Virus record (IMG/VR): IMGVR_UViG_3300017706_000718
Location: 1-27,827 of that record
DNA from: a virus
Length of the DNA stretch: 27,827 bases
Strand: one strand, 5' to 3'
Within the stretch, counting starts at the first letter, position 1, and every line of letters starts with the position of its first letter. Below are positions 3,487-24,575 of this stretch, one piece after another. A program made the translations under genes and the position numbers. Below the pieces are notes generated by a model. The model did not search any database. It saw nothing but the letters and a program-made list of their open reading frames with translations, and was not told the DNA's origin.

Positions 3487-3504
3487 ATGTGTTACTTTGG
3501 ACAC

Positions 3505-4014
3505 ATGAGCTTACTAACTTCTCAAGCAGTTGAGGTTACCGACGAAGACAGAATTGAACTTCAGTCTCATTTTCCCTACGCCGGAGTAAAATTATCCGAG
3601 CTTTCGGTCCAAGAAGAAAGAGTCATTTTGTATTTTTTACGGGGCATGAGTAAAGCGGCCGCGGGACGTGCAGCGGGGTACAAGAACCAGGATTCAGTGT
3701 ACGAAGTTTTTAAAAAACCAAAGGTGCAACAAGCTGTTCAATATCTAAGAGAAGAGATGCGAGAAGAAGTTAAGTTTGATCGTAACACCGCGACCCAAAT
3801 GTATTTAGAAGCCCACAGAAAATCCGCGACTTCTACCGAAGAAAAAAATGTTGTCGATTCTCTATGCAAGCTCCACGGTCTATTTGCACCCGAGCAAGCA
3901 ACCCAAGTTAATATAAACGTAGATAAGTTAGAAAGATTAGAAAGATTACCGGACTCCGAGCTGCTAAAGTTAGCTGGGGTAGATACACAATACTTAGAAC
4001 CAAAAGGAGAATAG
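3505..4014 (+). CDS. terS: Terminase small subunit (TerS) candidate
   Basis: TerS binds the phage packaging site and hands the DNA to the large subunit. This 169-aa protein has an N-terminal helix-turn-helix-like region at about residues 38-85 (LRGMSKAAAGRAAGYKNQDS, then FKKPKVQQAVQYLRE), the typical layout of small terminases whose repeated G-Y and K-P-x-V motifs are visible here. A helical central segment (residues 85-135) and a short leucine-rich C-terminal tail follow. ATG 3505 is chosen, although an in-frame ATG at 3487 would add six residues and neither has a clear ribosome site. It is the first gene of the rightward operon, with TerL 1.8 kb downstream, and nothing else here fits the role. 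Family assignment is by motif and position. Confidence 0.75.
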   Translation: MSLLTSQAVEVTDEDRIELQSHFPYAGVKLSELSVQEERVILYFLRGMSKAAAGRAAGYKNQDSVYEVFKKPKVQQAVQYLREEMREEVKFDRNTATQMYLEAHRKSATSTEEKNVVDSLCKLHGLFAPEQATQVNINVDKLERLERLPDSELLKLAGVDTQYLEPKGE

Positions 4015-4015
4015 T

Positions 4016-4150
4016 ATGACTAGTAAATATGAAATGGCTTCTAGAGCCAGAAAGAAAAAACGTAAACTAACTTCTGCTCAAAAAACTTTGCCTAAGTTTT
4101 TGCAGGATAAAATAACCAAAGCGAAAAAGAAAAAAGGGACAAAAAAATGA
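4016..4150 (+). CDS. Lysine-rich mini-protein (44 aa)
   Basis: It begins MTSKYEMASRARKKKRKLTS and ends in a lysine run (KAKKKKGTKK). The start follows AAAGGAGA inside the end of the terS gene, and the stop overlaps the ATG of the next gene (ATGA), so translation is coupled. It is strongly basic with no hydrophobic core, so it is probably disordered or folds on nucleic acid. It is the first of eight such proteins between the terminase genes. No family is recognised. Confidence 0.65.
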   Translation: MTSKYEMASRARKKKRKLTSAQKTLPKFLQDKITKAKKKKGTKK

Positions 4151-4467
4151 GTACCTCAAGTAAAAAGAAAACCCAAAAGAAAAACGATACCATCGGAAAC
4201 GATGATAACAACACGGCCAAAGTAAACACTAAAACATATGCTAATCTTAAAGAAACCCTAAATTTTTTTTCTAAGACCAATAAAGAAAAAAGAAAAAACA
4301 AACGAGTACGAGACGCTTATGCATCTTCTGGGCTTAAGTCCGGCAAAAAAGACAGTTTTGGAAAAGATAAAGTTGTAGAATCAGGAACAGATGTACTAAA
4401 CGCAATAGCAATGCGTAAAAAATCCATAGTAGACAAAAAACCAAAACGTAGGGGAACACCAAAATAA
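4147..4467 (+). CDS. Basic hypothetical protein (106 aa)
   Basis: It starts MSTSSKKKTQKKNDTIGNDD. A lysine/asparagine-rich head (residues 1-30) is followed by a central helical stretch (YANLKETLNFFSKTNKEKRK) and a second part with helical potential (GTDVLNAIAMRKKSIVDKKP). Both ends are basic. The ATG overlaps the stop of the upstream gene by 4 nt and the stop overlaps the next start (TAATG). It could bind DNA or packaged nucleoprotein; no known family is recognised. Confidence 0.7.
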   Translation: MSTSSKKKTQKKNDTIGNDDNNTAKVNTKTYANLKETLNFFSKTNKEKRKNKRVRDAYASSGLKSGKKDSFGKDKVVESGTDVLNAIAMRKKSIVDKKPKRRGTPK

Positions 4468-4547
4468 TGCATTGTATAAATCAACCTCAAAAAAAAATGT
4501 CCGGTAAAAAATCTAAAAAGAAAAAAATGGGCAAAAAGAAGAAATAA
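4467..4547 (+). CDS. Very small lysine-rich protein (26 aa)
   Basis: It starts at an ATG overlapping the upstream stop (TAATG), begins MHCINQPQKKMSGKKSKKKK and ends MGKKKK. More than half of the residues are lysine. Its length, overlap and similarity in composition to the neighbours support translation, but a gene this short is uncertain. Confidence 0.45.
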   Translation: MHCINQPQKKMSGKKSKKKKMGKKKK

Positions 4548-4572
4548 TATATATATTAAAAAGGAGTAAATT

Positions 4573-4860
4573 ATGAAAAATATTATATTTGTATTGGTAT
4601 CAGTTTTTATGACAGCTTGTGCTACGGTAGGTGCTGTTATAGATGGTGGTAAAGATTTAACCACAAGTGTTATTGATTCTACTGTAAAAACAGCAGGAAA
4701 CATCACAACATCAGCTTTAGAAGATGTAAGTGGAGTTATTGATACTGTCGCTGAATCAACAGAAAATATTGTTGATAATGTGGTCGAGCAAATTGATGAG
4801 CAAACTGATGAGTTGCAAGATTCAAAGCCAGAAGAAAAAGAGGAAGAAAACACTAAATGA
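4573..4860 (+). CDS. Small lipoprotein (95 aa)
   Basis: Residues 1-15 are a hydrophobic signal (MKNIIFVLVSVFMTAC) ending in a lipobox with C16 as the lipidation site, followed by A, T. The mature part is a repeating hydrophobic/polar helix (IDSTVKTAGNITTSALEDVS and similar) and then a disordered acidic tail (KPEEKEEENTK). It is expected to be anchored in the inner or outer membrane facing the periplasm. The ribosome site AAGGAGTAAATT is identical to that of the leftward small genes. Phage lipoproteins of this size include superinfection-exclusion factors and spanin partners; neither is proven. Its acidic character is opposite to that of its neighbours. Confidence 0.75.
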   Translation: MKNIIFVLVSVFMTACATVGAVIDGGKDLTTSVIDSTVKTAGNITTSALEDVSGVIDTVAESTENIVDNVVEQIDEQTDELQDSKPEEKEEENTK

Positions 4861-4985
4861 AAGGATCCCACGGTATCAACGCCCCTCACCCAACCAATAT
4901 GGCCAAGTTTGCAAAGAAAATGAATAAATATAAGAGCATACCAAAAACAGGAGGTAAAAATGCCAGCAAAAAGAAAAACTACTAA
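4857..4985 (+). CDS. Small basic protein (42 aa)
   Basis: It starts at an ATG overlapping the lipoprotein stop (ATGA) and begins MKGSHGINAPHPTNMAKFAK. The rest is lysine-rich and ends NASKKKNY. Its last 26 nt overlap the start of the next gene in another frame. The GGAGGT ribosome site of that gene is read as Gly-Gly here. Not recognised. Confidence 0.6.
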   Translation: MKGSHGINAPHPTNMAKFAKKMNKYKSIPKTGGKNASKKKNY

Positions 4986-5133
4986 AAAGAAAAGTGGCTC
5001 GAAGCCAACAAACCCTAGTTTATATTCTAGAGTAAAAGCAGAAGCTAAACGAAAGTTTAAAGTTTATCCAAGTGCTTATGCTAACGGTTGGTTAGTAAGA
5101 ACTTATAAGAAACGTGGTGGCGGTTACAGATAA
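4960..5133 (+). CDS. Basic conserved phage protein (57 aa)
   Basis: It begins MPAKRKTTKKKSGSKPTNPS. A lysine-rich head (1-15) precedes a compact motif I recognise from many marine phages and some large algal viruses: NPSLYSRVKAEAKRKFKVYP, SAYANGW, then a basic RGGGYR end. The function is unknown; the conserved tyrosine, tryptophan and basic residues suggest a small nucleic-acid-binding fold. GGAGGT lies 5 nt upstream of the ATG, and the stop overlaps the next ATG. Confidence 0.75.
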   Translation: MPAKRKTTKKKSGSKPTNPSLYSRVKAEAKRKFKVYPSAYANGWLVRTYKKRGGGYR

Positions 5134-5450
5134 TGGCTAAACCCACCGGTGGCCTATCCGCATGGTTTGGTAAAGGCCCCAAAGGGGATTGGGTTGATAT
5201 TGGTGCCCCAAAAAAAAAGGGCAAGTATCAAGCCTGCGGTAGAAAATCCGCGAAAGGCAAAAGTAAACGTAAGTACCCTAAATGCGTACCACGTTCGAAA
5301 GCTCAGTCTATGACTGCAGCTCAGAAGAAAAGCGCAGTGAAGAGAAAACGTGCAGCGGGGAATCCAGGCGGGAAGCCACGTAACGTGAAAACTATAGTTA
5401 GGAAAAGAAAACCTACTACAAAAAGGAGAACTCGTGCCAAGAAAAAGTGA
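5133..5450 (+). CDS. DUF5872-like basic protein (105 aa)
   Basis: The N-terminal half carries the pattern I associate with DUF5872: GGLSAWFGKGPKGDWVDIGA, then GKYQACGRKS, KYPKCVPRSKAQSMT and KKSAVKRKRAAGNPGG. Two cysteines (in QACGR and PKCVP) could bind metal. The C-terminal 20 residues are a lysine/arginine tail. The family has no known function; it occurs, as I recall, in tailed phages and in large eukaryotic viruses. It overlaps the upstream stop by one base and the next gene by 17 bases. Recognition is from memory. Confidence 0.75.
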   Translation: MAKPTGGLSAWFGKGPKGDWVDIGAPKKKGKYQACGRKSAKGKSKRKYPKCVPRSKAQSMTAAQKKSAVKRKRAAGNPGGKPRNVKTIVRKRKPTTKRRTRAKKK

Positions 5451-5718
5451 TAATATGCCCAAAAGGAACAAAAAGAACTTTAGGGCAACTAAAAAAGGCG
5501 CTGGAATGACCAAAGCAGGGGTAGCAGCCTATAGAAGGAAGAACCCAGGCTCTAAATTAAAGACAGCAGTTACAGGAAAAGTTAAAAAAGGATCAAAAGC
5601 AGCTAAAAGACGTAAGTCTTACTGCGCAAGAAGCGCAGGACAGATGAAGAAGTTCCCAAAAGCAGCTAAAAACCCGAATTCTAGGCTAAGGCAAGCCAGA
5701 AAACGTTGGAAATGTTAA
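5434..5718 (+). CDS. DUF6321-like basic protein (94 aa)
   Basis: The start is the GTG at 5434, which has GGAG 5 nt upstream; an ATG at 5455 is the alternative. The conserved core is GAGMTKAGVAAYRRKNPGSK, then LKTAVTGKVKKGSKAAKRRK, SYCARSAGQMKK and a C-terminal SRLRQARKRWKC. I associate this pattern with DUF6321, a short basic family of unknown function found in phages and giant viruses. The two terminal-half cysteines and the many K/R residues fit a nucleic-acid-binding role, which is inference. It overlaps the preceding gene by 17 nt in another frame. Confidence 0.75.
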   Translation: MPRKSDNMPKRNKKNFRATKKGAGMTKAGVAAYRRKNPGSKLKTAVTGKVKKGSKAAKRRKSYCARSAGQMKKFPKAAKNPNSRLRQARKRWKC

Positions 5719-5733
5719 CAAAAGGAGTAAAAT

Positions 5734-5817
5734 ATGGGATACGCAGGTATGTACAAAAAATCAGCACCTAAAAAAGCCAAAAAAAGTAAGAAAAAGACTA
5801 AAAAAACTAAAAAATAA
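5734..5817 (+). CDS. Lysine-rich mini-protein (27 aa)
   Basis: It begins MGYAGMYKKSAPKKAKKSKK and continues as lysine/threonine to the stop. AAAGGAGTAAAAT precedes the ATG, one of the better ribosome sites in the window, which supports translation in spite of the length. It ends 3 nt before the TerL start. Confidence 0.6.
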   Translation: MGYAGMYKKSAPKKAKKSKKKTKKTKK

Positions 5818-5820
5818 GTT

Positions 5821-7464
5821 GTGACAGACCTTCAGAAGCTAGAATGCTACAAGTGTAAGAAACTTTTGGCAGAAAACCTCGTATTACCCAAAGGGTTATG
5901 CGTATATTGTGCTGCAGATGAAGCAGAACAGCTTCCTGAACCCAAAAAACAACAAAAAACTAATAAAAGAGAAGAAAACGCGCAAATAAAAGCCGAAAAA
6001 GAGCTCGCAATGCGTATTTTAGCAAGAAAACGCATGCTGCCCTTTGTAGAAAAGTTTAATCCCGATTACCAAGCAGGCTGGGTCCATAAAGATGTCTGCA
6101 GAAGGCTAGAAAAATTTAGCCAAGATGTAGCTGAGAAAAAATCTCCTCGATTAATGCTTTTTATGCCCCCTAGGCACGGAAAGTCAACCTTAGCTAGTAT
6201 CGCCTTTCCTGCTTGGCATCTTGGACGTAACCCGGGGCACGAATTCATTAGTTGTTCGTATTCTGGATCTTTGGCCATGAGCTTTTCTAGAAAAGTTAGA
6301 CAAGTGTTAAGAGAACCTAATTATAAGAATGTTTTTGAAAATGCAAAGTTAGATAAAGATTCACAGTCCGTAGAATCGTGGCAAACAACCCAAGGCGGTG
6401 GTTATGTAGCCGCGGGTGTTGGCGGTGGTATCACAGGTAAAGGTGCGCACGTATTGTTGATCGATGATCCGGTAAAAAACCGAGAAGATGCAGAATCTGA
6501 GAACAATAGAGAAGCAACTTGGGATTGGTACACTTCTACCGCTTATACACGTTTGTCTCCAGGTGGCGGAATACTAGTTATTCTTACGCGTTGGCACGAT
6601 GATGACTTGGCCGGCAAACTTTTAACTGCTGGTGAGAATGGAGCAGATGAATGGGAAGTGGTTAAATATCCTGCTGTTGCTGAAGAAGACGAAGAATTTA
6701 GAAATGTAGGAGATGCGTTGCACCCAGAACGTTATAACTTAGAATCTTTAGAAATGATACAAAAAGCTATTGGCCCAAGAGACTGGACTGCTCTATATCA
6801 ACAAAACCCTGTATCAGATGAAGGTGATTATTTTACCCGAGATATGATTAGGTATTTTGAACCAGAAGAAGTAGAGTACGACAAGATGCGGTACTATTGC
6901 GCGTGGGATTTGGCTATTGGGCAAAAAGATAGAAATGATTATTCTGTAGGAGTTGTAGTAGGAGTTGACGAATATGATAATATGTTTGTTGTCGATTTGG
7001 TCCGTGGCAAGTATGATGGGTATGAGTTAGTAGAAAAGATATTAGATCTATACGAACAGTGGCGACCCGGAATAGTTGGAATCGAACGAGGCCATATAGA
7101 AATGTCCATTGGTCCTTTTCTACAAAAACGTGTAGCAGAACGTAGATTACATTCTGCATATTTTAAAGATTTAAAAGTAGGACGACGTGATAAAGAAGCA
7201 AGAGCTAGAGCAATTCAGGGTAGAATGCAGCAAGGTAAAGTTTACTTTCCTTCTGATTCCGTTTGGACGGGGCCAATGGTTGCTGAACTTTTGCGTTTTC
7301 CTAACGGTGTACATGATGACCAAGTTGATGCTTTGGCCTGGGTTGGTTTAATGATGATGGAATATGCTACATTTTATGAAGCACCAGAACATATACCTTC
7401 TTGGAGAGATAGGTTAGAATTGGTAGCAAAAGGGTCGAAAAAGAAATCGGCAATGAGTGCATAA
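5821..7464 (+). CDS. terL: Terminase large subunit (TerL), ATPase and nuclease
   Basis: This is the motor that pumps DNA into the procapsid and cuts it. The ATPase Walker A-like motif is at residues 114-122 (FMPPRHGKS) and Walker B at about 211-216 (LLIDDP). The nuclease acids include D363 (CAWDLAIGQKDRNDYS), E and R in GIERGHIE, and D499/D500/D503 (HDDQVDA). Its 547 aa are typical. It starts with GTG 3 nt after the upstream stop, with no clear ribosome site. Residues 9-30 form an unusual extra C-x2-C-x14-C-x2-C zinc-ribbon-like head joined by a lysine/glutamate linker. If the true start were later, this head would be lost, but the frame is continuous and has protein-like codon use. Confidence 0.95.
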   Translation: MTDLQKLECYKCKKLLAENLVLPKGLCVYCAADEAEQLPEPKKQQKTNKREENAQIKAEKELAMRILARKRMLPFVEKFNPDYQAGWVHKDVCRRLEKFSQDVAEKKSPRLMLFMPPRHGKSTLASIAFPAWHLGRNPGHEFISCSYSGSLAMSFSRKVRQVLREPNYKNVFENAKLDKDSQSVESWQTTQGGGYVAAGVGGGITGKGAHVLLIDDPVKNREDAESENNREATWDWYTSTAYTRLSPGGGILVILTRWHDDDLAGKLLTAGENGADEWEVVKYPAVAEEDEEFRNVGDALHPERYNLESLEMIQKAIGPRDWTALYQQNPVSDEGDYFTRDMIRYFEPEEVEYDKMRYYCAWDLAIGQKDRNDYSVGVVVGVDEYDNMFVVDLVRGKYDGYELVEKILDLYEQWRPGIVGIERGHIEMSIGPFLQKRVAERRLHSAYFKDLKVGRRDKEARARAIQGRMQQGKVYFPSDSVWTGPMVAELLRFPNGVHDDQVDALAWVGLMMMEYATFYEAPEHIPSWRDRLELVAKGSKKKSAMSA

Positions 7465-18137: not shown

Positions 18138-21100
18138 GTGGCGGTACTTGACCCCTTTAGCGGCGCCCCAATTGACTTAACTAAAGTTAAAGATCCTACC
18201 CGTGTAAAAAATATAGCTAATCAGCTTTCTAGGAATCAAAGACAACTTACAGGTGGACCTTCTTCCTACGAAGAAGCTCTTACAGCCCCTCGTGTTCCAA
18301 TGCGAGAACTTAAACAAGCCACTAATGTTATACCGCGTGACTATGAGGTAGAAGTCGGAGATTACAACGACCCTATTTATAACATTACTCAAGGTTTTAA
18401 AAAAGGCACTCGTACCCTCTCTAGTACTAATCAATTTATGGTAGCAGCTGCTAACTCTATTTTAGGTAGAGAAGAAGCAAGAGACGAAGCTATAGCAAAA
18501 GCTGCAGGAGCAAGACAAGAGGCAGCAGCCATACCTGGGGCTTTAGACATGGCCCAAGAGTGGGAACAATTTGCAGATGAACCTACTTTCAATGGTTTTA
18601 TTCGTGGTTTTACTTCTAGTCTTGGAGAAGTAGGCCCTACTGCAGTAGCTAGTATTACAGCTGCTCTAACCGGTACGGCGGTAGCCGCCTTAACTGCTCC
18701 CGCTTCTGTACCCACAACTGCAGGAGCAATTTTAACTGGCGCAGGTGTAAAAGGGTTAGTAAGAAAAACAGTTATGGACGGTTTTGCTAAAAAAACTATA
18801 CAAGATGCTATAAGCCGTACTTTAAAAAAGAAAAAGCTAAGTGACGCCCAAGAAGAAATTATGGCAGCAGTTTACAAAAATTATCAAAGCCAAATGTATA
18901 AAAGACGATTAGCTAGGGGTGGTTTAGGCGGAGCATTTGCCCAAGAACAAACACAAGGTACTGGAGTATTTTTTGGTAACTATGCTGATCAAGGTATGGT
19001 AGACCCTATTTCAGCTTTAAAATCTTATGGCTTGTCCCTTCCTTTTGCCACTATAGGTGTTGGATCTGAAGCTTTAGTTTTTAATACAGTATTAAAAAAC
19101 TTAAATAAATATTCTTTTAAGTCTGGTTTAACTAAAGCAGGACGAGAAAACTTACAGAAAGGCGCCCCTAGTATTACTGGAACAACTTTAAAAATAGGAG
19201 GGGTTACTGCTTTAGCGGAAGGAGGCGCAGAACTAGGCCAACAAGGTTTAGAAATTATGCAACGTTTTAATATAGACCCAAGTTACACAGAAGAACAAGC
19301 AAGGTTAGATGCCTACATTTCTTTTATGGCCGGTGCTTCTGCTGGGTTTGGTTTTGGTGGAGGAGCAGGAGTTACAACAGGAGCCGCTAATAAAGCACGA
19401 CATGCTTTAGACAGCCTGCATCAAAAAAGAACACTTAATCAAATGTATGCTAATAAATTTGGAGACCCCAAGAATGAAGTTATTTTAGAACCTTCCCAAT
19501 GGTATTTAGATAAATTTGAATTAATGTTTGATCCGGAAAACGACATTGACGCAGTATGGGTTCCTATAGAAAGTAAAAAAACATATGAAGATGTTTTACC
19601 TCAACTTAAAGAAAAGTATAATTTTGATAATTTGTATCAATATGATATGAATTTTGAACAAGCTGGTTTAGGAGGAATAATGATTTCTACTAACCCACAG
19701 ACTACAGAAGCTTTTGCTAATACCATGGAAAATACTTATCCTAGCACTGCTTTATTAGAACAGCAGTTGGCTCGTTTTCTTAAATATCCTAGAAGAAGAG
19801 ATCCTAATGACACGCATGTTATTCAAGTTAGGAATAAACAAACAAAAGGAATACCTCATTATTTTCAAACAACCGCTCCTGAAGAAGACGGAACGCATCC
19901 AGATTTAGAAAAAACAAAAGCTTTGTTTAGAAATAGCCCTAAGTACGATTATGAAATTGTAGAAGCAGAAGATCATTTAGAAGAAAGAATAAACTTAACA
20001 GGGCGACCTGATCTTGAAGTAAACAAAATGGAATTTGATTCCGAATCTGAAATGCGACAGGGACGAAAAGACGCAGTTGGACAAGAAGATTTTTCTGGAG
20101 AAAGCCCTACAACTTTAAGAAATCAAATAGGAAGACTAGTAGAAGAAGGATATTTACCGGGGGGTGAGTTTGATTTACCTACCCCAACTAAAATTGAAGA
20201 CAGGCCTTTAATTTTAAACAGAAACAAAAAACCTTGGACTCTTCCAAATCCTAAATACCTTAAAGACCAAGCCCCAGATGAAAATTTAATTGCGGACGCA
20301 AGAACTGCTACACACCCAAACTTTGTACGTGAGTTTGATAGAAAGATACAAGAAAATCAATATTCAAGAATTTTATTAAAAGAATTTGTTAAACAAACAA
20401 ATAAAAAATTTGAAGTAAACCCTGAAACCAACACTGAAGTTGTTTACAAAATAGAAGAGGTAGAAGGGGGGTATGGCATAGCTACTTATGAAACTACTAT
20501 ACAAAAAGTAGAGAGTATGGAAGCTTTGCAAAAAGCAATAGATAGAATCATTAGAAATGCTAAAGACGGAACAATAGTAGGAAAAGGAGTAAGAGGCAGT
20601 CGTTTTAGAATACGTTCTTTAACTCAAGAAGGAGCTACACCACAACCGTTCGATATGCCTTACGTTGTTAACAGTTTTTATAGACAAGTTATGGCTAGGC
20701 TACGAGATACTCCTTCAGGTTTAAATTACAAAGCGCAATTAGCAGATTCTGCAATTACTTTCATAGAAACAATGTTAGATCCAGAGTTTGGGTATGAGTT
20801 ACTTTTTGATTTTAAACCCATAACAGAAGCAAATGTTGATACAGTATTTAACGACGCGATTGTATATACAGAAAATAAAAAGAAAAACCAACTTACTATT
20901 GCAGACCTACAAAGAGAAGGTAAACCAGAAGAAAAAGAACTTACTGCAACAGAAAAAAAAGTACAACAAAAATTTCGAATAGACCCTAGAGATTTAAAAG
21001 CTGTTCAAGCAAAAATAGAACAATTACAATCCGGCAGGTCTGACAAAGGAGTAGACCCTTTCGTTAGAAACGATATAGAACTTTTAGAAAAACTTCTAGC

Positions 21101-24100
21101 AGAAGGCACTTTTGACCCTAGCACTGATGTAGGGCCTGAGACAACTGGCGAGAAAGTAAAAAAAGGTACGAAGCAAACAGAGGAAACAATTGAAGGAGAT
21201 CCTATTTTTTCAGACCCTACTGTAGAACAGGTTTGGGATGCTGAATTAGAACAGTCTAAAAATACATTAAGTAGATATAAAAAACCAGGACAACCAAAAG
21301 AACCTTTGTCAGATGAAGCAAGACTACAACAAGCGCAAGAAGAAGCTGAGTTTCAACAAGCTGTACGAAATTTAGATAAACGAAAATCAAAATCTACTTT
21401 AAAAAAACAACCAAAGAAAAAAACAGTTAAACAAAAACAACCAGTAGAACCAATTGTATCTGAAGGAGTACAAGAATATTTCGGACAAAATAGGTTTAGC
21501 AAAACTCTTTTAAAACAAATTTTAACTGCAGCTAAAAAACATTTAAAACTAGAAAGGCCTATGTTGGTGTTTACTACTACTGAAGATATAAAACTAAGTT
21601 ATGTTTCTCCTGAAATGAAAGAAAATAATATTACTGCTCAACAGTTAGAAAACGAAATAAAAAGATATGTTGAGCTTGTAAAAACAGGCGAAATAGGAGG
21701 GTTTGTAGGGGGTTTTAATGCTGGCGGAAAAGTAGATTTTGATATAATAGTTTTAAACACTGAAGCAGACCCAGATGCAGCAACTTTAGGAAACCAGTTG
21801 TTAGTGCTCGCCCATGAGTTAGGACATTCTCTTTATAGACAAGAATTAGACAAAAGTTTAACAAATTCAGTTTTACGAAAACAGTTACAAACAGAATTTT
21901 TAAAAGACCAAAAAGCTAACCCCGATATATTTCAATATAATGACCCAGACCCAGAGGCAGACAATTTTCAAGAATGGTTTGCAGATAAAGTAGCTTCTAC
22001 TCTTTTAGATTTAGATAAAGGATTAATTCTTAAAAAGAACAAAACTCTGTCTGATCGTCTTATTACAAATATGGCAAAAGCCATACAAGCTTTTTGGAAA
22101 GCAACACGTTTAAACATCCCAAAACAATTTATAGAGGGAACTGTAAGAAGAAGAAGAGAAGAAAATATAGTCGCAGCAGAAGATCCAGATTTTAGAACAG
22201 ACAGGATTTTTGAAACAGACCCTGCAGCTGTAGAAGCTGAAGTTTCACAAGGCGTTTTGGGAGAAGCAAAGTTAAGATTTACTTATAATGAAACATTTGC
22301 TGATTATATTAAAAACCTTACAGCAACAGCTACTAACTCTAATCCTAATATACGTAATTTATCAGATCCTAATTTTATGGTTTCTTGGACAGATAAAGCA
22401 CGTATAGAAGAAACGTTAGACCAACTTTTAGACACTGTTTTTGGTAATACAAAAACAGAAAAAATGATAAAAGAAATAAATGCTCTTGCTGAAAAAATAG
22501 TAAAGACTGATAAATTACCAGGTTTTCTTAAAAAAATATTTTATGATGCGCACTCTTATACAAAGACTTTAGGAAAAGACAAAGGAACAGGGCAAAAAAT
22601 AGCAGACTTTTTTCATATAGAAAGTAATACCGCTGCTTTAGGGCCCGGTATAACTTACCAACCTCCTGGTTTTATTAATGAATCTAATAGACTTACTAAT
22701 GAAATAATGCAAAGACTAGTTGATATATTAGAAATAGATGAAAGTAATCTTAACCCTTTTGAAAAAGGCCAAAAAGTTATTACCGGCGTAAAAGGAGCTA
22801 CGTTTGGTAAACGAGAAATAGAAGCTTTTAAACAAGCTAATAATGAACAATTATCTTTTGAACAGCTATCTCCTTTAGCCCAAAAAGTTAGAACGTTTTT
22901 AAAAGAAGATATATATGATTATTTAAATTTAAAAAAAGCTGGAGTAAAAGAAAGAGAAAATTACTTCCCTCGTACTGTTTTAATAGAGGAAATTGCTACT
23001 AACCCAGAAAAAAGACAAATATTTTTTGATTTAATTGCAGAAGCTGAACCCACTAGAGATGCAAAATATATTAATAGTCAAATAGATGGAATGATAACAG
23101 GCAATGAAAGAGATGCGACTGAAGTAGATGAATCAAATTTAACAAATGAAGAACTTCAAACGTTAAGAGCTAAAGAAGATAGGAAAAAACTTAAAGAAGA
23201 ACTTCAAGATTTAAGTTTAGGTATGGCGGCGGAAAGAACAGAAATGCTTAGAAATGTTGGCAACAAAGATCTTTTAGAAGCCGGACTAATCGCCCCACCT
23301 GAAGTTGCAATAATCGAATACATAAGAAATATGGCTAGAAGAGTAGAGTTTAAACAAAGAGGAGGAGCGGCTCGTCTTAAAAATCTTATAGATGAATTAC
23401 CAAAAGAAGAACAGTCTTTAGCTAAAGAAGCTGTGCAAGCTATGATGGGCAAAGTAAGTCCAATCGAACATAATTTGTGGAGAAACATAAGCGATGGTGT
23501 TACAACTGTAAACGTGTTTTCTATTTTAGGTTTAGCAGTATTTGCTTCTTTACCAGATGGTGCTGGGCCAATAATAAGAGCAAAACAATTTGAACTTTCT
23601 ACTATTATTAAAAACATCACTCAGGGGCTAGGAGAGAAAGAAGGTGCTCAACTAGCAAGAGATATAGGCACAAACGGAGTAGAAGCTGCTGCAACTACAA
23701 TTTTGTATGCAGGAGAAGTATCAAGTTCAAAACCTTGGGCTAACAAAGCAACAACCGCTTTCTTTAGATACACACAGTTAGAAAGGTGGACTATATTTAC
23801 TAGGAAATTTGCAGCCGGCATGGCAAGAGATTTTTTACTTAAACAAGCTAAAATAATTCAAGAAGGGTATCAAGGCGACCCAGAGGTACTTTTAGCAGTA
23901 AGATATTTAGCAGATTTAAACCTTACTGTAGATGACGTAGTTAAATGGGACCAAGGGGGGCAAAACCTTAGGTATGGAGAAAATCAAAAAATTAAATCAG
24001 CTTTGAATAGATTTGTAGATGAAGCTATTGTAAGACCAAACGCAGCAGAAAGACCTATTTGGGCTTCTGACCCACATTGGGCAATAGTTTGGCAGCTTAA

Positions 24101-24575
24101 ATCTTTTTATTATGCTTATGGTAAAAATATTGTAGGTGGCATGATTAGAGAAGGGAAAACTAGAAGAGGAGAAACAGATAGATATAGTGACGCTGTTTTA
24201 CCTCTTTTGTTTGGGGCTGCTTTAATATTACCTTTAACAATGATTGGTTGGGACCTACGTGAAAGATTTAAAATAGGGTTAGCTTATGCTTTACCCGGCG
24301 TAAGCCCAAATGATCCTGGTGTTAATTATAGAAGGTCCAGAAGTGTAGGCCCTGGAGAATACACTTTTGAAGTTCTTGATAGATCTGGTTTATTGGGAGC
24401 GCCTGCTTTAGCCCTGCCTTTATTTTTTGAATCTAAAAGGTATGGAAACCCTGGTTTTGTTCCTGTGTTTGGGCCTGGGTTTGAAAAAGCTTGGAGTGCT
24501 ATTTCTGGGGACTTTGATGCATTTGACTACGCCCCAGGTTATAGTTCTCTAGACACTCGTAACATAGGAAGGTAA
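18138..24575 (+). CDS. Giant putative ejection protein with zinc-metallopeptidase motif (2145 aa)
   Basis: It starts with GTG right after the previous stop, as MAVLDPFSGAPIDLTKVKDP. Visible parts are alanine/glycine-rich membrane-like segments at residues ~163-203 and ~396-416, a lysine-rich linker at ~1080-1105, and a zinc-peptidase motif H1226-E-L-G-H1230 (VLAHELGHSLYRQE) with a likely third ligand E1279 in QEWFADKVAS, 49 residues later. Near the C-terminus are hydrophobic segments at ~1794-1812 and ~2020-2040 (LPLLFGAALILPLTMIGWDL). This is the pattern of the largest T7 gp16-like or polyvalent-type virion protein that crosses the cell envelope with the DNA. The peptidase may process phage or host proteins. 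No RNA polymerase or transglycosylase motif is seen. Confidence 0.65.
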   Translation: MAVLDPFSGAPIDLTKVKDPTRVKNIANQLSRNQRQLTGGPSSYEEALTAPRVPMRELKQATNVIPRDYEVEVGDYNDPIYNITQGFKKGTRTLSSTNQFMVAAANSILGREEARDEAIAKAAGARQEAAAIPGALDMAQEWEQFADEPTFNGFIRGFTSSLGEVGPTAVASITAALTGTAVAALTAPASVPTTAGAILTGAGVKGLVRKTVMDGFAKKTIQDAISRTLKKKKLSDAQEEIMAAVYKNYQSQMYKRRLARGGLGGAFAQEQTQGTGVFFGNYADQGMVDPISALKSYGLSLPFATIGVGSEALVFNTVLKNLNKYSFKSGLTKAGRENLQKGAPSITGTTLKIGGVTALAEGGAELGQQGLEIMQRFNIDPSYTEEQARLDAYISFMAGASAGFGFGGGAGVTTGAANKARHALDSLHQKRTLNQMYANKFGDPKNEVILEPSQWYLDKFELMFDPENDIDAVWVPIESKKTYEDVLPQLKEKYNFDNLYQYDMNFEQAGLGGIMISTNPQTTEAFANTMENTYPSTALLEQQLARFLKYPRRRDPNDTHVIQVRNKQTKGIPHYFQTTAPEEDGTHPDLEKTKALFRNSPKYDYEIVEAEDHLEERINLTGRPDLEVNKMEFDSESEMRQGRKDAVGQEDFSGESPTTLRNQIGRLVEEGYLPGGEFDLPTPTKIEDRPLILNRNKKPWTLPNPKYLKDQAPDENLIADARTATHPNFVREFDRKIQENQYSRILLKEFVKQTNKKFEVNPETNTEVVYKIEEVEGGYGIATYETTIQKVESMEALQKAIDRIIRNAKDGTIVGKGVRGSRFRIRSLTQEGATPQPFDMPYVVNSFYRQVMARLRDTPSGLNYKAQLADSAITFIETMLDPEFGYELLFDFKPITEANVDTVFNDAIVYTENKKKNQLTIADLQREGKPEEKELTATEKKVQQKFRIDPRDLKAVQAKIEQLQSGRSDKGVDPFVRNDIELLEKLLAEGTFDPSTDVGPETTGEKVKKGTKQTEETIEGDPIFSDPTVEQVWDAELEQSKNTLSRYKKPGQPKEPLSDEARLQQAQEEAEFQQAVRNLDKRKSKSTLKKQPKKKTVKQKQPVEPIVSEGVQEYFGQNRFSKTLLKQILTAAKKHLKLERPMLVFTTTEDIKLSYVSPEMKENNITAQQLENEIKRYVELVKTGEIGGFVGGFNAGGKVDFDIIVLNTEADPDAATLGNQLLVLAHELGHSLYRQELDKSLTNSVLRKQLQTEFLKDQKANPDIFQYNDPDPEADNFQEWFADKVASTLLDLDKGLILKKNKTLSDRLITNMAKAIQAFWKATRLNIPKQFIEGTVRRRREENIVAAEDPDFRTDRIFETDPAAVEAEVSQGVLGEAKLRFTYNETFADYIKNLTATATNSNPNIRNLSDPNFMVSWTDKARIEETLDQLLDTVFGNTKTEKMIKEINALAEKIVKTDKLPGFLKKIFYDAHSYTKTLGKDKGTGQKIADFFHIESNTAALGPGITYQPPGFINESNRLTNEIMQRLVDILEIDESNLNPFEKGQKVITGVKGATFGKREIEAFKQANNEQLSFEQLSPLAQKVRTFLKEDIYDYLNLKKAGVKERENYFPRTVLIEEIATNPEKRQIFFDLIAEAEPTRDAKYINSQIDGMITGNERDATEVDESNLTNEELQTLRAKEDRKKLKEELQDLSLGMAAERTEMLRNVGNKDLLEAGLIAPPEVAIIEYIRNMARRVEFKQRGGAARLKNLIDELPKEEQSLAKEAVQAMMGKVSPIEHNLWRNISDGVTTVNVFSILGLAVFASLPDGAGPIIRAKQFELSTIIKNITQGLGEKEGAQLARDIGTNGVEAAATTILYAGEVSSSKPWANKATTAFFRYTQLERWTIFTRKFAAGMARDFLLKQAKIIQEGYQGDPEVLLAVRYLADLNLTVDDVVKWDQGGQNLRYGENQKIKSALNRFVDEAIVRPNAAERPIWASDPHWAIVWQLKSFYYAYGKNIVGGMIREGKTRRGETDRYSDAVLPLLFGAALILPLTMIGWDLRERFKIGLAYALPGVSPNDPGVNYRRSRSVGPGEYTFEVLDRSGLLGAPALALPLFFESKRYGNPGFVPVFGPGFEKAWSAISGDFDAFDYAPGYSSLDTRNIGR

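Follow-up and report, generated by a model that had tools for sequence, protein, structure and literature searches.

The window analysed here is a marine phage DNA of 27,827 nt, IMG/VR record IMGVR_UViG_3300017706_000718, whose terminase genes TerS and TerL are separated by a tightly packed cassette of small open reading frames (ORFs) coding for very basic proteins, named here b1 to b8. An earlier note, made from the DNA alone, had described eight such ORFs of 26-106 aa between the two terminase genes, and their coordinates and sizes agree with ours (Table 1). The basic character and overlapping starts and stops that it reported were likewise recovered. The eight products contain 26-48% Lys plus Arg, with isoelectric points of 10.3-12.0 and net charges of +11 to +35 each, adding up to +156. 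Genes meet at ATGA junctions at 4147 and 4857 and at TAATG junctions at 4467 and 5133, while b4/b5 share 26 bp and b6/b7 17 bp. AGGAG-type ribosome sites are found upstream of 4573, 4960, 5434 and 5734, and promoter and terminator scans gave no reliable plus-strand signal within the cassette. The set is not purely basic: in its middle lies an acidic, lipoprotein-like ORF of 95 aa (4573-4860, net -14), which is missing from the note. The NCBIfam search gave no match above its cut-offs, and neither this search nor that of Pfam placed the acidic ORF in a family above cut-off; its features are compatible with a putative spanin-like or entericidin-like protein.

A TerL search of IMG/VR yielded 80 relatives, and 57 loci, the window included, hold both TerS and TerL. 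Presence of the basic genes in these loci, as assessed by BLAST, ranges from 54 for b7 to seven for b2 (Table 1). The survey of gene order in relatives, a check that the earlier note had itself proposed, found the cluster conserved: profile searches locate b7 between TerS and TerL in 55 of the 55 clade loci holding all three genes. Median ratios of nonsynonymous to synonymous substitution (dN/dS, Nei-Gojobori) are about 0.07 for b5, b6 and b7, 0.08 for TerS, 0.05 for TerL and 0.12-0.35 for b1, b2, b3, b4 and b8, all of them approximate because synonymous divergence is near 1. Judged from these sequence comparisons, the core of the module is formed by b5, b6 and b7, and the remaining Lys-rich mini-proteins are less conserved companions. 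Their higher ratios also make the tiny Lys-rich ORFs less certain as individual genes. The TerS-TerL interval varies from 221 to 2552 bp among loci and its content changes. The two shortest intervals, in L012 (221 bp) and L080 (335 bp), have no b5-b7 and two Lys-rich mini-ORFs each. In L025, an epimerase/dehydratase-like ORF replaces b5-b7 between TerS (ending at 4338) and TerL (starting at 5696).

Table 1. Genes of the TerS-TerL interval and its boundaries in the window (loci, presence by BLAST among the 57 TerS-TerL loci; dN/dS, median).
Feature	Position	Strand	Evidence
TerS (upstream boundary)	3487..4014	+	phrog_51 E 3.4e-9; Pfam Terminase_2 22.2 bits, below cut-off 26.1
b1, 44-aa Lys-rich mini-protein, net +16	4016..4150	+	ORF; 33/57 loci; dN/dS 0.35
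b2, 106-aa basic protein, net +19	4147..4467	+	ORF, ATGA overlap with b1; 7/57 loci; dN/dS 0.31 (5 pairs only)
b3, 26-aa Lys-rich peptide, net +12	4467..4547	+	ORF; 45/57 loci; dN/dS 0.21
Acidic 95-aa protein, net -14, N-terminal signal and lipobox-like MTAC	4573..4860	+	ORF with AGGAG site; among relatives only L003 and L004
b4, 42-aa Lys-rich protein, net +11	4857..4985	+	ORF; 10/57 loci; dN/dS 0.12
b5, 57-aa DUF5872 protein, net +17	4960..5133	+	PF19197 40.9 bits, cut-off 27.5; 37/57 loci; dN/dS 0.07
b6, 105-aa protein, two invariant Trp and two invariant Cys, net +35	5133..5450	+	phrog_23735 E 8.7e-27; 37/57 loci; dN/dS 0.07
b7, 94-aa DUF6321 protein, net +33, C-terminal W-x-C	5434..5718	+	PF19846 46.7 bits, cut-off 28.5; 54/57 loci; dN/dS 0.07
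b8, 27-aa Lys-rich peptide, net +13	5734..5817	+	ORF with AGGAG site; 30/57 loci; dN/dS 0.28
TerL (downstream boundary)	5821..7464	+	phrog_38 E 6.1e-124

Lys codons are A-rich, so that open frames in A-rich DNA can look basic without being genes. The AT skew is strongly positive across the interval and the smallest ORFs, b1, b3 and b8, are partly near poly-Lys, with dN/dS of 0.21-0.35, as would be expected of such an artefact. However, 500 dinucleotide shuffles of the TerS-TerL interval gave a mean of 1.4 basic ORFs and a maximum of 5, against the eight observed, which cover 85% of the interval. Purifying selection on b5-b7 and family matches exceeding curated cut-offs also speak against this explanation, which is highly improbable for the cassette and was rejected for b5, b6 and b7 on the basis of dN/dS and the shuffles.

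Profile matches assign b5 and b7 to Pfam families without assigned function, DUF5872 (PF19197) and DUF6321 (PF19846), and b6 to phrog_23735; related groups are phrog_727, phrog_10346 and the cyanophage cluster T4-GC119. The match of b5 covers only the first third of DUF5872 (profile positions 1-38 of 116), and a b6-type protein of phage C72C1 matches positions 53-106 of the same profile at 24.4 bits, just below the cut-off; DUF5872 as defined in Pfam may therefore extend over b5 and b6 together. Searches of Pfam and PHROGs gave no convincing family match for b1-b4 and b8. For DUF6321 the literature searches yielded no paper, and for DUF5872 a single one, in which the family is just listed for an algal virus genome (PMC12085832). 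No paper describing the b5/b6/b7 set as a packaging-linked module was found in the searchable literature. The earlier note knew of no described system with this function. Its picture of eight unknown proteins is not supported, since b5, b6 and b7 belong to described families of unknown function. These families are known by name, but in the searchable literature their association with packaging modules in unrelated phages appears to be undescribed.

The AlphaFold2 model of b7 is a compact helical domain of four helices (predicted local distance difference test score, pLDDT, 87.8; predicted template modelling score 0.68), and the model of b6 is less certain and partly ordered (pLDDT 68.5). With b7 predicted to fold, the idea of a purely disordered histone- or protamine-like set is not supported. 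The b7 model has no fold match in the PDB (Foldseek best E 9.7; VIA-align best Z 2.2), its significant viral fold matches being DUF6321 proteins, and the b6 model has no PDB fold match either. Sequence searches up to E 1 returned no solved relative of b5 or of b7. For b6, matches to solved structures, including the DNA-binding domain of I-TevI (1i3j), reached E values of only 0.5-0.7 and were treated as noise. Alignment A8 of b6 shows invariant Leu8, Trp11, Trp20, Cys35 and Cys51. Conserved Cys pairs in basic proteins recall disulfide-linked protamines, by way of analogy only.

The finding is more general than the earlier note could show, as the same families are found close to the packaging genes of unrelated phages. 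In the T4-like cyanophages S-B68, P-TIM68, S-CREM2 and S-SZBM1 a DUF6321 protein is encoded between TerS and TerL; for that of S-SCSM1 the TerL side was seen, in a stretch without TerS. A cyanophage-led scan of IMG/VR found the order TerS-DUF6321-TerL kept in 12 of 13 loci with all three genes. T4-like cyanophages often have the b6, b5 and b7 domains fused as one protein. S-BM3 codes, directly after TerS, for a single 337-aa protein with b6-like, DUF5872 and DUF6321 domains, which has relatives in 497 phage records, and among loci L099-L127 the b6 domain is N-terminal to a C-terminal DUF6321 in 19 of 23 long ORFs. Roseophage CRP-7 has, directly upstream of TerL, gp65 (DUF6321-like), gp64 (DUF5872-like, through a match to phrog_727) and gp63 (b6-like, by inspection of its sequence). 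BLASTP gave no meaningful similarity of the window TerL to the TerLs of S-CREM2 and CRP-7, and the association is therefore not simply inherited with the terminase. Phage C72C1 carries a DUF5872 and b6 pair between TerL and portal. The families lie away from the terminase in the T7-like cyanophage P-SCSP1i, after the major capsid gene, and in pelagiphage HTVC010P, in a late block of small genes near the endolysin gene.

A total of 218 DUF6321 loci was compared. In 129 of 130 cases the closest head gene detected shares the strand of the DUF6321 gene, and in 211 of 218 the DUF6321 domain forms the C-terminal end of its protein. The two viral scans provided 22 loci flanked by long stretches on either side. 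Our small query panel detected no head gene in 11 of these 22, and of five loci without a panel head gene that were checked with PHROGs, two (L179, L202) had tail or virion proteins. Given the size of this panel, the head-gene association is a minimum estimate, also not proven for those 11 loci. Other architectures include a 381-aa ORF of L143 that strings several basic modules together with DUF6321, and proteins in which DUF6321 is C-terminal to a cytidylyltransferase-like protein (L312:6322-7953) or to a HicA-type domain (L139:7662-8285). A portable C-terminal DUF6321 on enzymes could, as an idea only, mean loading of cargo into virions. A dihydrolipoamide dehydrogenase ORF ending in DUF6321 (L295:6711-8225) comes from a contig of a metagenome-assembled genome, is probably an assembly chimera and was not used as a fusion. 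A motif that resembles the core of an AT-hook, GTYGKKVGRPPKKKK, is found in one of the mini-ORFs of L012, and the L143 fusion contains a comparable stretch, GTYGSKVGRPKKK.

Virion data exist for relatives of b7. The mass-spectrometry table of S-CREM2 virions lists ORF137 (108049-109521) with values of 4 and 4.1, which we read as peptides and percent coverage (PMC10665884), and ORF137 is a DUF6321 protein (40.8 bits). S-SCSM1_29 (DUF6321, 79.5 bits) has the GenBank label 'virion protein'; the S-SCSM1 paper gives 45 as the number of virion proteins identified by mass spectrometry and states that the cytidylyltransferase-like enzyme class, to which DUF6321 is joined in L312, is repeatedly reported in cyanophage virions (PMC9602691). 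In silico trypsin digestion gives no peptide of 7-35 aa for b1 and a single one for b7. Usable tryptic peptides being so few, absence from tryptic virion data is weak evidence.

Gene positions, the co-occurrence and fusion of the families and the virion data together speak for proteins that are associated with the head and produced along with the packaging genes. Since the families lie beside packaging genes of unrelated phages and have relatives reported in virions, they probably travel with the viral DNA. We favour, with a probability of about one half, the hypothesis that the cassette codes for small head proteins associated with DNA, which are synthesised late, along with the packaging motor, and packaged with the genome. 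Late expression is deduced from gene order, and DNA binding would be the natural reading of the high charge. The basic proteins would be produced late, alongside the packaging motor, and b5-b7 with their companions would bind the phage DNA by electrostatic contacts at about the time when it is packaged. The bound proteins would end up inside the head, where they could partly neutralise or organise the genome, and they might enter the next host with the DNA. From charge and gene context we infer for the cassette proteins DNA binding, a location in the head interior, charge neutralisation and DNA condensation. At about 360 copies each, the eight proteins would together contribute some +56,000, or nearly half of the charge carried by a 60-kb genome; this arithmetic assumes the copy number of T4 internal proteins and a genome length taken from relatives' contigs of 56-63 kb. 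The link to packaged DNA proposed in the earlier note, as condensing, guiding or packaged histone-like proteins, gains from clade conservation, head-module position elsewhere and the S-CREM2 virion listing; the proximity to the terminase is not universal, as seen in pelagiphages and T7-like cyanophages.

Several observations weigh against this hypothesis. According to a chlorovirus paper, there is no evidence for a large contribution of basic proteins to the neutralisation of phage double-stranded DNA (PMC3281028). The 30 virion proteins reported for S-SZBM1 do not include its DUF6321 protein, S-SZBM1_192 (PMC9146016), and the S-BM3 record labels family T4-GC_119 'Hypothetical' and others virion structural. 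For S-CREM2 ORF137, coverage is low (4.1%), and although the protein has a basic end its full length is acidic, with a net charge of -20; it may therefore be a structural protein on other grounds. The virion reports concern relatives only, none of them from the window or its clade.

The basic proteins could instead be packaging accessories left behind in the cell, where they would bind concatemeric DNA or the terminase or portal as recruitment or DNA-bridging factors. Adjacency to TerS or TerL in three lineages with unrelated TerLs fits such a role, as do the overlapping starts and stops, which hint at coupled translation as far as the terminase gene. We nevertheless hold it to be unlikely: one DUF6321 relative is in a virion proteome list and another is labelled a virion protein, the pelagiphage and P-SCSP1i copies lie away from the terminase and near capsid, tail or lysis genes, and L012 and L080 have no b5-b7 between TerS and TerL, although, with contigs this short, copies elsewhere may have been missed. 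The interval could also be a gene-dense insertion hot spot accepting unrelated small genes with no common packaging role. Sullivan et al. indeed call the cyanophage gp16-gp17 interval a hot spot (PMC3037559), and the variable length and content of the interval in the clade, with an epimerase-like ORF in L025, agree with this. It accounts poorly for b7 being kept in 54 of the 57 loci with dN/dS like that of TerL, for three families that co-occur, fuse and sit in head modules across unrelated phages, and for the two Lys-rich mini-ORFs that persist even in the two shortest intervals; we regard it as distinctly improbable.

A role in the host cell would give the charge another meaning, that of nucleic-acid binding by injected or late-made proteins acting on the nucleoid, RNA polymerase or ribosome. 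The basic internal proteins of T4 are carried in the head and then ejected into the host (PMC9026906), and the DUF6321 fusions to a HicA-type domain (L139) and to a cytidylyltransferase-like protein (L312) fit effector delivery. The genes sit, however, in head modules and on the head-gene strand, and no known host-takeover domain was found in b5-b7 with Pfam, PHROGs and NCBIfam, so that we judge this explanation also unlikely.

The hypothesis of head proteins packaged with the genome can be extended, in a bolder and rather doubtful form, to many marine tailed phages, which would have their own nucleoid protein set: a cassette of two to three small basic domains beside terminase or head genes, separate or fused, loaded with the DNA and neutralising a sizeable share of its charge. 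A conserved packaging-linked basic module in several unrelated groups of ocean phages would, if true, change the view that phage DNA is usually neutralised by cations and polyamines and not by proteins (PMC3281028). Two Pfam families and the protein with relatives in those 497 phage records would then also acquire a function.

Two further features of the window lie outside the cassette. An apparently non-coding segment of 275 bp upstream of TerS (2662-2936) has eight copies of TGGAACCA on either strand, against an expectation of 0.68 for the window as a whole. Where relatives include sufficient DNA on the upstream side, most have 5-8 copies, with near-constant internal spacing and a variable distance to TerS. 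The array is a candidate for origin iterons or for a packaging (pac) site. Further downstream, a 2145-aa ORF (18138-24575) with a HELGHS zinc-peptidase-like motif codes for a very large predicted late protein.

Known systems resemble the window set in different respects. The histones of phage alpha3 are also phage-encoded and proposed to organise DNA (PMC11390915); they have a histone fold, and the b7 model is without PDB match. By description, the set resembles A278L, A282L and other basic proteins of the PBCV-1 virion, several of which are proposed to neutralise packaged DNA (PMC3281028). It shares with adenovirus VII/mu and baculovirus P6.9 a very high Lys/Arg content and the proposed charge neutralisation of packaged DNA. 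It differs from these protamine-like cores in being dominated by Lys rather than Arg, in its bacterial hosts and in the conserved Trp/Cys of b7, and, in place of a disordered chain, the models predict four helices for b7 and partial order for b6. Like T4 IPI, IPII and IPIII, which are packaged at about 360 copies each (PMC9026906), the window proteins are small, basic and encoded with head genes. The T4 proteins carry N-terminal capsid-targeting propeptides cleaved by gp21; no sequence relation was found, and packaging of b5-b7 is a prediction. The set also resembles the DUF6321/DUF5872/T4-GC119 proteins of cyanophages, families for which searchable papers describe neither function nor packaging link. 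They hold the same domains between TerS and TerL as the window, where, in contrast to the fused cyanophage proteins, these domains are separate small genes accompanied by extra Lys-rich peptides.

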